A stretch of 64,000 nucleotides of DNA from Actinomycetota bacterium (GTDB lineage: Bacteria > Actinomycetota > UBA4738 > HRBIN12): contig DASQWI010000002.1 in the NCBI GenBank assembly GCA_035640355.1, positions 1-64,000 on the forward strand, read 5' to 3'. The notes beneath the pieces are model-generated. The model had not been told where the DNA came from, did no database searches, and saw only the letters and a list, made by a program, of their open reading frames with translations. Position numbers and translations under genes: made by a program. Below are positions 1 through 64,000 of the stretch, piece by piece. Each line of letters begins with the position of its first letter. Position 1 is the stretch's first letter.

Positions 1-940
<940 letters not shown>

Positions 941-19035: not shown

Positions 19036-19067
19036 CGCGCGGCGGCGGTCACGCGCCGAAGGCGACA

Positions 19068-19195
19068 CCCGTCCTCTCCCATCCCGACTCTCACGGTCGG
19101 TTCCGGAATCTCACCGGATCAACCCCCGAGTGGCTCCCGGGAGGTCGCGGACTCTCACCGCCGGTGGGGACTTGCACCCCGCCCCGAAGACGAGC
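19068..19195 (-). promoter_or_regulatory. FMN riboswitch (RFN element)
   Basis: The minus-strand RNA shows the conserved RFN core: GGGGTGCAAGTCCCCACCGG, then CGGTGAGAGTCCGCGAC, GTTGATCCGGTGAGATTCCG, AACCGACCGTGAGAGTCGGG and ATGGGAGAGGA. Each junction segment of the six-stem aptamer is recognisable. It lies upstream of ribD, where FMN binding should repress riboflavin synthesis. The stretch 18995-19253 contains no protein gene. Confidence 0.95.
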
Positions 19196-61003: not shown

Positions 61004-62113
61004 CTATCTTCGCCTCCGTTTGGCCGGGGGCTTCCGCCGGGTCTTCGGGCGCGGGCGGACCGGCGTCGTGCGGGTCGGGGCGCCGACCGCGGCGGGTTCG
61101 GTGGAAGGCTCCTCCGGCGGGGGCGCCTCGAGCGCCCGCAACGGCCGTTCGCCGGTCCGTCGCTCCAGTCGGGCACGGTGCTGCCGATAACGGGGCTCTC
61201 GCTCCTTGAGGATCACCAGAATGGGAACCGCCACGAAGATCGACGAGTACGCGCCGGTGATCACGCCCACCAGCATGGCGAACGCGAAGTCCTTCAGCGT
61301 CTCGCCGCCGAACAGCAGCAGCGAAAGGATCGGCAGCACGACCACGAGGGACGTGTTGACCGAACGCATCAGCACCTGGTTCATCGACAGGTTCGCCACG
61401 CCCTCGTACGTGTCCTTGGCCAGATACCCGGGCGACTCTGTGTTCTCCTTCACCTTGTCGTAGATCACGACGGAGTCATAGAGCGAGAACCCGAGGATCG
61501 TGAGGATGGCGATGACGGTGGGCGGCGACACCTGCCGCCCGGTCAACGCATACACGCCGGCCGTGATCACGACATCGTGGACCATGGCGGCGATCGCGGC
61601 GAGCGCCATCTTCCACTCGAACCGAAGCGACACGTAGATGCTGATCGCCACGAGGACGACGGCGAGGCCGATCACCGCCTGACGAGTGATCTGCGCTCCC
61701 CACGTCGGACCGACCACCTGGATGCTGACGTCCTCGGGCGCGACGGCCGCCTGCTCGGCGAGCGCCTCGGTCAGCTGGGTACGCTCCTCCGCGGACAGGT
61801 CGGTGAGCGCCGTCGTCCGGATCGACACACGGTTGCCTCCGACGACCTGGATCTCGGCGTCCCCCCGATCGAACGGCTCTTGCGCCAGGAGGTCGCGGAT
61901 CTCCTCGACGGTCACGCCGGACTCGGTAGGGAACTGGATGATGCTGCCGCCGGTGAAGTCGATCGAGTAGTTGAGTCCACGGGCGAACAGGCCGACGAGC
62001 GCGAGCGCCACCACAGCTCCCGAGAACAGGAACCACGTCCGCCGTCGCTGGACGATCCGGAAGTTCGGGGTTCGCTGCCCGCGGAAGGCCTGGAAGGTGG
62101 CGGCGAGGCTCAT
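61004..62113 (-). CDS. secF: Protein translocase subunit SecF
   Basis: 369-aa RND-family membrane protein driving late steps of Sec export with proton motive force. An N-terminal helix, extracytoplasmic P4 domain with LNYSIDFTGGSIIQF, and five further helices (FSLYDSVVIYDKVKEN; SVNTSLVVVLPIL) are present. A cytosolic tail of about 65 residues is Pro/Arg/Glu-rich and ends in KRRRR. The ATG at 62113 overlaps the secD stop in ATGA. Confidence 0.96.
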   Translation of the reverse strand: MSLAATFQAFRGQRTPNFRIVQRRRTWFLFSGAVVALALVGLFARGLNYSIDFTGGSIIQFPTESGVTVEEIRDLLAQEPFDRGDAEIQVVGGNRVSIRTTALTDLSAEERTQLTEALAEQAAVAPEDVSIQVVGPTWGAQITRQAVIGLAVVLVAISIYVSLRFEWKMALAAIAAMVHDVVITAGVYALTGRQVSPPTVIAILTILGFSLYDSVVIYDKVKENTESPGYLAKDTYEGVANLSMNQVLMRSVNTSLVVVLPILSLLLFGGETLKDFAFAMLVGVITGAYSSIFVAVPILVILKEREPRYRQHRARLERRTGERPLRALEAPPPEEPSTEPAAVGAPTRTTPVRPRPKTRRKPPAKRRRR

Positions 62114-64000
62114 CGCGCTGCCGCTCCCGCCAGCTCGGGCGTCGGCTCGGACTCCGCGACGAGGCCGCTTCGCACGCCGATCCAGCGCATGCGGACCAGG
62201 CGGTCGCTCCGCGCGAGCAAGAACACCGCCGGCCGCTTGAACAAGTAGACGACGAACAGGTCGAGCAGGACGGACACGCCGAGCGTGAGTGCAAACCCGC
62301 GGACCGAGCTGATCGCGGTGAGGTACAGGACGATGGCGGCAAGCGCCGTCACGATGTCGGCGGCGATGATCGTTCGGAACGCTTTCTTGAAAGCGGGCTG
62401 CACTGCCGAGCGCGGAGACTTGCCAGCGTGCACCTCGTCCTTGAAGCGCTCGAAGAACACGATGTACGAGTCGGCCGTCACGCCCAGCGAGATGACCAAT
62501 CCCGCCACTCCGGCGAGCGTGAGTGCGTAGCCGACCGTTCGTCCGGCGAACGCGATCAACGCGAGCGCGAGGATCGCCCAGATCGTCATGCCGACCCACG
62601 CTACGACGGCCAGGATCCGGTAATAGAACAACAAGTACAGCGCGAGCAGGATGAGGCCCGCGACGCCGGCCACGATTCCCTGCTGAAGCGACTCCTCGCC
62701 GAGCGTCGGGCTGACGGTGAGGACCTGCTCCGTCGTGAGCTCCACAGGGAGCGCGCCCGCGTTCAATTGCGTGGCGAGGTCCTTCGCCCGGTTCTCGGTG
62801 AAGTTGCCACTGATGATCCCGGACCCGCCCGTGATCGGTTCGTCGACGGTCGGCGCCGAGATGACCTCGCGGTCTACCACGATGGCCAACTGATCGTTGC
62901 TCGCGGACAGTCGCGTGGTTGCGTCGGCGAACGCACCGCGCCCCTCCGGCGTGAGTGTGAAGTCGATCGTCCACCCCTGCCCTACCGCGCCGGTGGAGTT
63001 GAACACGGCGTCCGCGCTGTCGATCGCGTCACCTGTCAGCTCGACCGGTCCGAGCCGGTACTTCGCTCGTTCGGCGGGGTCCTCGAACACGACCTCCGCG
63101 TCGCGCAGCGCCTCGAACGAGCACTCGGCGCTCTCTCGCTCCTCGGGCGTCGCGCAGTCGACTGGTGTCGCGTCGAACTCGGGCGTCCCGAGCGGGATCT
63201 CCGCGATCACCTCCCGGAACTCCAGACGCGCCGTCTGGCCGATGACCTGCAACAGGCGCTCCTGGCCCGTCTCCTGGAGGCGCGCCTCGGCATCCTCTCG
63301 CGACAGGAAGCAACCGAGCTGCTGCCCGGCCGAGCTGACCACGCAGAACCGCGTGTTAACGTCGCCAACCGTGAGGCTTGCGAGCGAGTCCGTAGCAGCC
63401 TCCTCGGTGGAGTAGCACGCCGGACCGAGGTCGTAGCGGAGCGGCTCGTCACCGCGGCCCTGAAGGCAGAACGTCTGGGAAACGTCGACGGCGATGGTGT
63501 CGAGCGCCGCGGTGGCGCCTTCGCGTGACCCGAAGCACGGCTCGTCGGCAAGCCCCGTGTCCGTGAGGCAGAAACGGTCCTCGCGCTTGCGCACCGACAT
63601 TGCCTCGATCGCGTCATCGGCCTCCTGTTCGGACCCGAAGCACGGCGAGTCGCCCTCGGCGAACACATCGCCGGTGAGGCAGGCCGACGCCACCACCGGT
63701 TCCACGCTGGCGGCCTCAAGTTGCGCCTCGGCGTCGGCACGTTCGACGAAGCACCCGAAGCTCACGTCATCTGGATCGAGCAAACACGATCGCGGGCGCC
63801 GTTCCTCCTCGATCGTGCCGCGGGCGAGACCGGGGATCTGAACCTCGATCGTCGTGCCGGTGACGAACAGCAGCGGCTCGGCCGTTCCGAACGCGTCGAT
63901 CCGGTTCCGGATGTTCTCCAGGGCCCTGTCCATCACGTCGGTCGGGGTGCCCTCGGGCGCGGACAGGATCACCGACACGCCGCCCTGCAGGTCGAGCCCG
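62110..64000 (-). CDS. secD: Protein translocase subunit SecD, N-terminus missing, with Cys-repeat insertion
   Basis: The last about 630 residues of SecD; the gene runs past the right window edge, and the visible sequence starts at GLDLQGGVSV. The P1 domain, TAEPLLFV...VQIPGLA and GQTARLEF, is split by an insertion of about 184 residues (63247-63798) holding five repeats, each with a Cys pair. The rest is standard: VGQGWTIDFTLTPEGRGAF, the substrate-binding IISGNFTENRAKDLATQLNAGALPV, and six C-terminal helices with GVTADSYIVFFERFKDEV. The insertion lies outside the membrane. The gene is coupled to secF by ATGA. Confidence 0.95.
   Translation of the reverse strand, partial: GLDLQGGVSVILSAPEGTPTDVMDRALENIRNRIDAFGTAEPLLFVTGTTIEVQIPGLARGTIEEERRPRSCLLDPDDVSFGCFVERADAEAQLEAASVEPVVASACLTGDVFAEGDSPCFGSEQEADDAIEAMSVRKREDRFCLTDTGLADEPCFGSREGATAALDTIAVDVSQTFCLQGRGDEPLRYDLGPACYSTEEAATDSLASLTVGDVNTRFCVVSSAGQQLGCFLSREDAEARLQETGQERLLQVIGQTARLEFREVIAEIPLGTPEFDATPVDCATPEERESAECSFEALRDAEVVFEDPAERAKYRLGPVELTGDAIDSADAVFNSTGAVGQGWTIDFTLTPEGRGAFADATTRLSASNDQLAIVVDREVISAPTVDEPITGGSGIISGNFTENRAKDLATQLNAGALPVELTTEQVLTVSPTLGEESLQQGIVAGVAGLILLALYLLFYYRILAVVAWVGMTIWAILALALIAFAGRTVGYALTLAGVAGLVISLGVTADSYIVFFERFKDEVHAGKSPRSAVQPAFKKAFRTIIAADIVTALAAIVLYLTAISSVRGFALTLGVSVLLDLFVVYLFKRPAVFLLARSDRLVRMRWIGVRSGLVAESEPTPELAGAAAR
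63247..63798 (-). repeat. Five tandem Cys-pair repeats within SecD
   Basis: Counting the GTG at 63978 as residue 1, cysteine pairs are at 65/76, 100/113, 137/148, 171/188 and 212/223. Each second Cys is followed by Phe or Tyr and an acidic helix-like stretch such as GSREGATAALDTIAV, STEEAATDSLASLTV or LSREDAEARLQETGQ. Unit length is 34-41 residues. Similar units suggest internal duplication. The repeats probably form disulfide-stabilised small folds on the extracytoplasmic face. Confidence 0.85.

Follow-up and report, generated by a model that had tools for sequence, protein, structure and literature searches.

SecD is an old and widespread component of protein export, and its P1 region is believed to handle chains as they exit the channel. 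P1 alternates between forms during the proton-driven cycle, and translocation depends critically on the P1 head (PMC9508474); recruitment of the chaperone SurA has been proposed for the periplasmic domains of SecDF (PMC9987972). Standard SecD, as defined by TIGR01129 and by the Pfam families PF21760, PF22599 and PF02355, shares the P1 core, the membrane part and the secD-secF gene order with the protein analyzed here, which is encoded in a 64,000-nucleotide stretch of actinobacterial DNA (assembly GCA_035640355.1, contig DASQWI010000002.1), referred to as the window. The window's SecD carries a five-unit insert in P1, and this insert is a lineage trait of the window's family, part of an uncultured actinobacterial branch.

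The gene is a genuine secD. Its product of 663 amino acids, encoded on the minus strand (G000:C2:62113-64101), scores 306.7 bits against TIGR01129 in an NCBIfam profile search (curated cut-off 244.4), and Pfam recognizes the P1 N-terminal family SecD_1st (PF21760; 44.1 bits, cut-off 27), SecDF_P1_head (PF22599; 92.7 bits, cut-off 27) and the SecD/SecF membrane domain (PF02355; 40.4 bits, cut-off 20.5). By its homology and the pairing of its gene with secF, the protein would stimulate protein export together with SecF. SecD residues 57-92 align to positions 1-37 of the 60 in SecD_1st, and from the match ending there the insert is seen to interrupt the P1 N-terminal (base) subdomain. Positions of the features are given in Table 1.

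Just past the window edge, between a yajC-like frame and secD, lies a gene (L004:9099-9842, minus strand; G000:C2:64098-64841) whose product of 247 aa contains an HD motif. The HD profile scores 18.5 bits on this protein, below the cut-off of 22. The motif LHD[VI]GN is found upstream of secD in 16 of 20 loci of the class, two of the four misses having fewer than 600 bases upstream. The gene product reads as phosphohydrolase-like, and it may form part of the export operon.

Table 1 Features of the window, with positions counted from its first nucleotide
Feature	Position	Strand	Remarks
16S rRNA gene	1-939	-	truncated by contig end
FMN riboswitch	19067-19195	-	
secF, 369 aa	61004-62113	-	without cysteine; start overlaps secD stop
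secD, residues 35-663	62113-63999	-	window part; gene extends 34 codons past the window to C2:64101
Extra C-x10-C pair, Cys316/Cys327	63121-63156	-	P1, downstream of the insert; from sequence
Unit 5, residues 250-285, Cys253/Cys264	63247-63354	-	unit-profile E 2.9e-15; likely founder
Unit 4, residues 209-249, Cys212/Cys229	63355-63477	-	unit-profile E 1.2e-7
Unit 3, residues 175-208, Cys178/Cys189	63478-63579	-	unit-profile E 7.8e-11
Unit 2, residues 138-174, Cys141/Cys154	63580-63690	-	unit-profile E 8.6e-7
Unit 1, residues 103-137, Cys106/Cys117	63691-63795	-	unit-profile match 63694-63792, E 1.1e-11

Architecture of the P1 insert

The conserved segments QIPGLA and GQTARLEF start at residues 88 and 288 of the window's SecD, with 194 residues separating them. 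Counted from PG to the next G, the distance is 196 residues compared to 11 in 9 of the 11 outgroup SecDs, in which both motifs were located by script; the two others (L028, L031) were judged alike by eye. The excess length of P1 is thus about 185 residues, in agreement with the roughly 184 extra residues read from the DNA at initial annotation; the 15-20 residues given there as the normal gap is too high a figure. The insert is built of five units, each 34-41 residues long, in which a C-x10-16-C-[FY] element precedes a helix. The spacings between the cysteines are x10, x12, x10, x16 and x10 from unit 1 to unit 5, with F or Y after each second cysteine, exactly as the ten cysteines in five pairs had been described. 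The general pattern can be written as [strand]-C-loop-C-[FY]-helix, the helix having a near-constant Ala. Among 44 aligned units, drawn from 79 in total, the two cysteines alone are invariant and the helix Ala is conserved to at least 90%.

Kinship of the units above chance is evident from profile comparisons and alignment scores, while raw identity does not reveal it. In hhalign, all 15 pairs formed by unit positions 1-5 and the lone unit present in two sister families (see below) give E values from 3.5e-17 to 3e-5; the weakest pair is unit 4 with unit 5, at a probability of 73%, the unit-4 profile having been built from 5 short-loop sequences alone. Across 69 of the 79 units (ten long-loop unit 4s were excluded), alignment scores between unit positions are 25-38 versus 13 for shuffled units, and mean raw identity is 0.29-0.33 versus 0.32. 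The lone sister-family unit is nearest to unit 5 (E 3.5e-17), followed by unit 3 (E 8.1e-13), and it occupies the same place in the protein as unit 5, which adjoins GQTARLEF. The nearest profile and the shared place together suggest unit 5 as the likely founder, with units 1-4 as its copies. Codon usage in the insert resembles that in the rest of the gene (GC3 0.84, compared to 0.88-0.95 elsewhere in secD).

The unit is a candidate for a new domain family with respect to the profile libraries searched. The whole insert matches no Pfam family at E ≤ 10, no SPOR domain being named among the Pfam matches of the units either, and its best NCBIfam match (E 0.049) lies under the cut-offs. Taken singly, the 44 units give best E values of 0.017 with PHROGs and 0.016 with Pfam, each for one unit of the 44, and the unit profile run against PDB sequences finds 1ufb (E 0.064) and 1o3u (E 0.21) as best matches, with 16 of the 35 profile positions covered. 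The profile search for a known domain, proposed at initial annotation, hence returned none from Pfam, NCBIfam, PHROG or PDB sequences. A described SecD or SecDF domain like the insert was not met in the open-licence literature searched.

Distribution and history of the unit

In the genome collection examined, the class comprises one order with four families (f1 to f4, the window's family being f1) and 27 genomes, 20 of which provided a SecD with readable insert site. No usable SecD was available from G001, G010, G020, G022, G023, G024 and G026; that of G024 is a 60-residue N-terminal fragment without the insert site and was excluded from the counts. One SecD included (L035) is partial, ending at the contig end. 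Five units with ten insert cysteines are present in all 15 SecDs of f1, which come from 15 of its 17 genomes. A single unit is found in f2 (one SecD, one genome) and in f4 (three SecDs, eight genomes), at loci L020, L022, L023 and L035. The unit is absent from the one SecD of f3 (one genome), and the insert is absent from all 11 outgroup SecDs.

A maximum likelihood tree of the 20 class and 11 outgroup SecDs, calculated with the insert removed, places the sequences in a ladder of outgroup, f3, f2, f4 and f1. Support (bootstrap/SH-aLRT) is 100/100 for the class, 99/93 for f1+f2+f4, 99/92 for f1+f4 and 100/99 for f1. The ladder orders the unit states as 0, 1 and 5. The simplest history suggested by these sequences, with f2 and f3 represented by one SecD each, is one gain after the split of f3 and a rise to five before f1 diversified; as read from the sequences, the number of units is constant at five since the f1 ancestor. 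The earlier proposal that tandem multiplication created a new extracytoplasmic domain of P1 is supported by the 0, 1, 5 order on the SecD-core tree and by the lack of a matching library family.

TIGR01129 has matches in 356 of 396 Actinomycetota genomes, and in this sample the unit profile finds no SecD beyond the class among the candidates scored, at most 19 per genome, so that weak or crowded cases may be missed. As to whether the insertion might be common and already characterized in actinobacterial SecD, it is confined to the class among these candidates, and no paper on it was met in the literature covered. Eight matches of the unit profile at E ≤ 1 occur in the genome of the window: the SecD units, all five at E ≤ 8.6e-7, and three others with E values of 0.28-0.44. 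The sole non-SecD match at E ≤ 0.01 in the 27 class genomes is a 132-aa frame (G004:C42, E 3.9e-4) that reads like a HEPN-type protein. The 369 phylum genomes outside the class contain four matches at E ≤ 1e-3, none of them in SecD on inspection of the frames. Concerning a mobile source, a tblastn search with the insert as query gave no match in 50,697 phage records, and of the 89 plasmid records that match SecD, none does so across more than 80% of it.

A 67-aa frame from another class of the phylum (L084:1833-1916; G201:C31:3332-3415) contains a near-perfect single unit, WCVISHRTGKNLGCYPTEKEAKERL, with a unit-profile E value of 2.9e-6 and a match to phrog_3684 at E 8.9e-5. By sequence, a phage-type protein may here carry a unit that is related to the one in SecD or else resembles it by chance.

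Selection on the insert bears on the idea that the units are a lineage ornament, that is, a near-neutral insertion fixed by drift, tolerated in an exposed loop and folded by its staples. From five within-genus pairs, dN/dS is 0.09-0.25 for the units and 0.06-0.11 for the core, indicating an insert under purifying selection, yet faster-evolving than the core. The faster evolution, the variable linkers and the finding of no such unit in SecD outside the class (at most 19 candidates scored per genome) are what an ornament would lead one to expect, but dN/dS values in this range, together with the retention of 150 of 150 insert cysteines and of the number five in the 15 SecDs, make it a quite unlikely explanation.

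Cysteines and predicted fold

Every f1 SecD (15/15) has exactly 12 cysteines, the ten of the units plus one pair in P1 downstream of the insert, spaced C-x10-C in 14 proteins and C-x11-C in L019. Elsewhere in the class, the totals are two in f4 (both in the unit), six in f2 and none in f3. The total is even in all 20 class SecDs (L035 being partial); outgroup totals are 0, 1, 2 or 4. In f4, the only two cysteines seen belong to the unit and can, within one chain, pair just with each other. The even totals, the fixed pairs within units and the absence of CxxC, the thioredoxin-type redox motif, from all 20 class SecDs favour structural disulfides formed within units over redox catalysis.

The contrasting possibility is a thiol-disulfide function, in which the cysteine pairs would enter into exchange with chains just exported or serve as a reserve of oxidizing power. 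All twelve cysteines of an f1 SecD are extracytoplasmic by position and at least one of VKOR, DsbB, DSBA and Thioredoxin_4 is matched in 14 of the 17 f1 genomes, as would suit such chemistry. However, besides the missing CxxC, both cysteines are kept in all units at a spacing suited to a hairpin staple, and the window's genome has no match to the four families. We therefore consider the function highly improbable, and the disulfide chemistry on exported chains suggested at initial annotation is not supported by this evidence. The oxidant search covered these four families only and several of the genomes are incomplete; among the 27 class genomes, profile matches were obtained for VKOR in 5, DsbB in 4, Thioredoxin_4 in 8 and DSBA in 11. 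G007 and G012, searched as whole genomes like that of the window (G000), also lack a match to any of the four: all three have six conserved cysteine pairs in SecD, yet none of these disulfide families.

An AlphaFold model of the insert alone, made from a two-row alignment, has a mean pLDDT of 85.5 and a pTM of 0.66 (mean pLDDT 82.8-85.5 across five models). Its strands and helices track the units defined by sequence, with both cysteines of every unit in or beside strands; each unit is predicted to fold as strands plus a helix, the two cysteines lying on neighbouring strands. The whole-P1 model, with a mean pLDDT of 62.2 and a pTM of 0.39, is poor in the parts other than the insert, pLDDT being below 50 for residues 246-265 and most of the head; its insert segment (model residues 61-220) has 72-91 per ten residues. 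Two Neomarinimicrobiota SecDs were kept out of folding, as their rows were misplaced in the insert of a four-row P1 alignment. Solved SecDF is among the best matches of the whole-P1 model, with Z 6.0 and rmsd 15.5 for 5yhf and Z 5.8 and rmsd 14.9 for 3aqo_C, the rmsd values implying a fit in parts only. Prediction, suggested earlier as a check, thus returned the five strand-helix units with their cysteines in or beside strands, but not a sound model of P1 around them. The helix of unit 5 is predicted for residues 268-289, reaching the P1 core helix, with pLDDT below 50 from residue 283 on; given this low value at the end of the insert model and the poor P1 model, a rigid helical joint from unit 5 to P1 is weakly supported.

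When the insert model is compared to the PDB with Foldseek, a single match is found below E 0.001, namely 7b5h_AD (E 3.2e-5, probability 1.00), which covers most of the insert. The chain is from the baseplate of a contractile injection system of Anabaena PCC 7120, which acts inside the cell on a phage-tail machine. The aligned part, chain residues 620-1114, fits the extension of Cis12, which is described as residues 610-1,100 and as forming the wide connector to the thylakoid membrane (PMC8894136); chain AD is probably Cis12. By the second aligner (VIA), 7b5h_AD has Z 2.6 (104 aligned, rmsd 5.5), tied with unrelated rows, so that the Foldseek match is not supported.

A likeness to a membrane connector would suit a passive spacer, the units forming a stiff rod that binds nothing itself and sets how high P1 stands over the membrane, or how far it is from SecY or the wall, five being a matter of length. 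The location of the match in the range of the Cis12 connector (PMC8894136) speaks for a spacer, as do the fixed unit number (15/15) and a sequence that changes faster than the core. The TM-score of 0.24 and rmsd of 12.8 from Foldseek and the Z of 2.6 from the second aligner weaken the first of these points, and flexible segments would spoil a fixed length: a stretch rich in Pro, Ser, Thr and Ala follows unit 2 in 13 of the 15 family SecDs (by eye), and a segment of the same type, 44-70 residues long, lies between the cysteines in the hairpin loop of unit 4 in 10 of the 15. The window's SecD has neither stretch. A spacer is a possibility to keep in mind, though on balance a doubtful one.

In the f2 protein (L023), the P1 cysteine pair after GRTARLEF encloses a long loop rich in Pro, Ser and Thr, showing that low-complexity loops inside cysteine pairs recur in the class. 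O-mannosylation of Ser/Thr/Pro linkers was considered from PF02366, which has matches in 23 of the 27 class genomes, the window's included; the E. coli and B. subtilis controls match too, so the profile proves little.

Other structural and sequence likenesses are slight. The insert sequence finds nothing better than E 1.1 among PDB chains, and that with a protein other than 7b5h_AD; the insert model has no match below E 0.001 among viral structure models. XkdF-type phage proteins match one unit at 36-40% identity over 35-41 columns (E 1.5-1.6), possibly by chance. Like the L084 frame, they have a single unit and are non-exported, unlike the SecD array. The repeat protein YegP (UPF0339/DUF1508) appears in the list of the second aligner as 2k8e with Z 2.3, far too low for kinship to be claimed. 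YegP is cytoplasmic and is not known to have a cysteine staple.

Proposed role and comparison with known SecD

The anatomy of the insert is well supported, and its function we infer. Within a single class of uncultured Actinomycetota, one unit, consisting of a disulfide-closed beta-hairpin and a helix, would have originated in the loop directly ahead of the second helix of the P1 base subdomain and been multiplied to five in the f1 ancestor. On the outer side of the membrane, the five units may make up an arm or platform that is rigid through its staples, the structural disulfides keeping it stable outside the cell; a compact cluster or a closed ring is conceivable too. Joined to P1 via the helix of unit 5, the arm could move with the proton-driven P1 cycle and provide the export motor with a site where emerging chains might dock, or else an exported partner concerned with folding or the envelope. 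Since a stapled module on the P1 base would be near emerging chains and move with P1, we take docking, be it of substrates or of a partner that is exported, as the most likely role, at about even chances of being right. Against docking, the faster evolution of the units and the long low-complexity loop of unit 4 (10/15) fit a spacer or relaxed constraint equally.

A bolder extension, which we regard as speculative and rather unlikely, would make the insert a dedicated receiving device that a whole class of bacteria has added to its Sec motor. This module of five units, locked by disulfides and perhaps closed to a five-fold ring, would catch or shelter the chains that P1 pulls out. The idea of a closed ring, as in the pentein fold with its five beta-beta-alpha-beta modules, was prompted by the order of strands and helices and by the unvarying number of units, and a ring whose ends meet would fit into one loop; no pentein was recognized among the structural matches listed. 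If true, the module would take on in cis a task that elsewhere falls to periplasmic chaperones acting in trans.

Lastly, living intermediates with zero and one unit show the stepwise gain of an exported part by a core machine, and the five-unit SecD is a handle on the contacts that P1 makes beyond the membrane in bacteria without outer membrane. Nor are such bacteria known to have the chaperones described from E. coli. Compared to standard SecD, the window's protein is distinguished by about 185 extra residues: after the third strand of P1 and ahead of its second helix, it has five units with paired cysteines. At this site, a unit of like kind occurs once in the SecDs of f2 and f4 and five times in the window's SecD, and the f4 proteins differ from the latter also in having no cysteine seen beyond the unit. 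The window's protein is thus a SecD with an inserted repeat domain of a kind not met in the literature covered.
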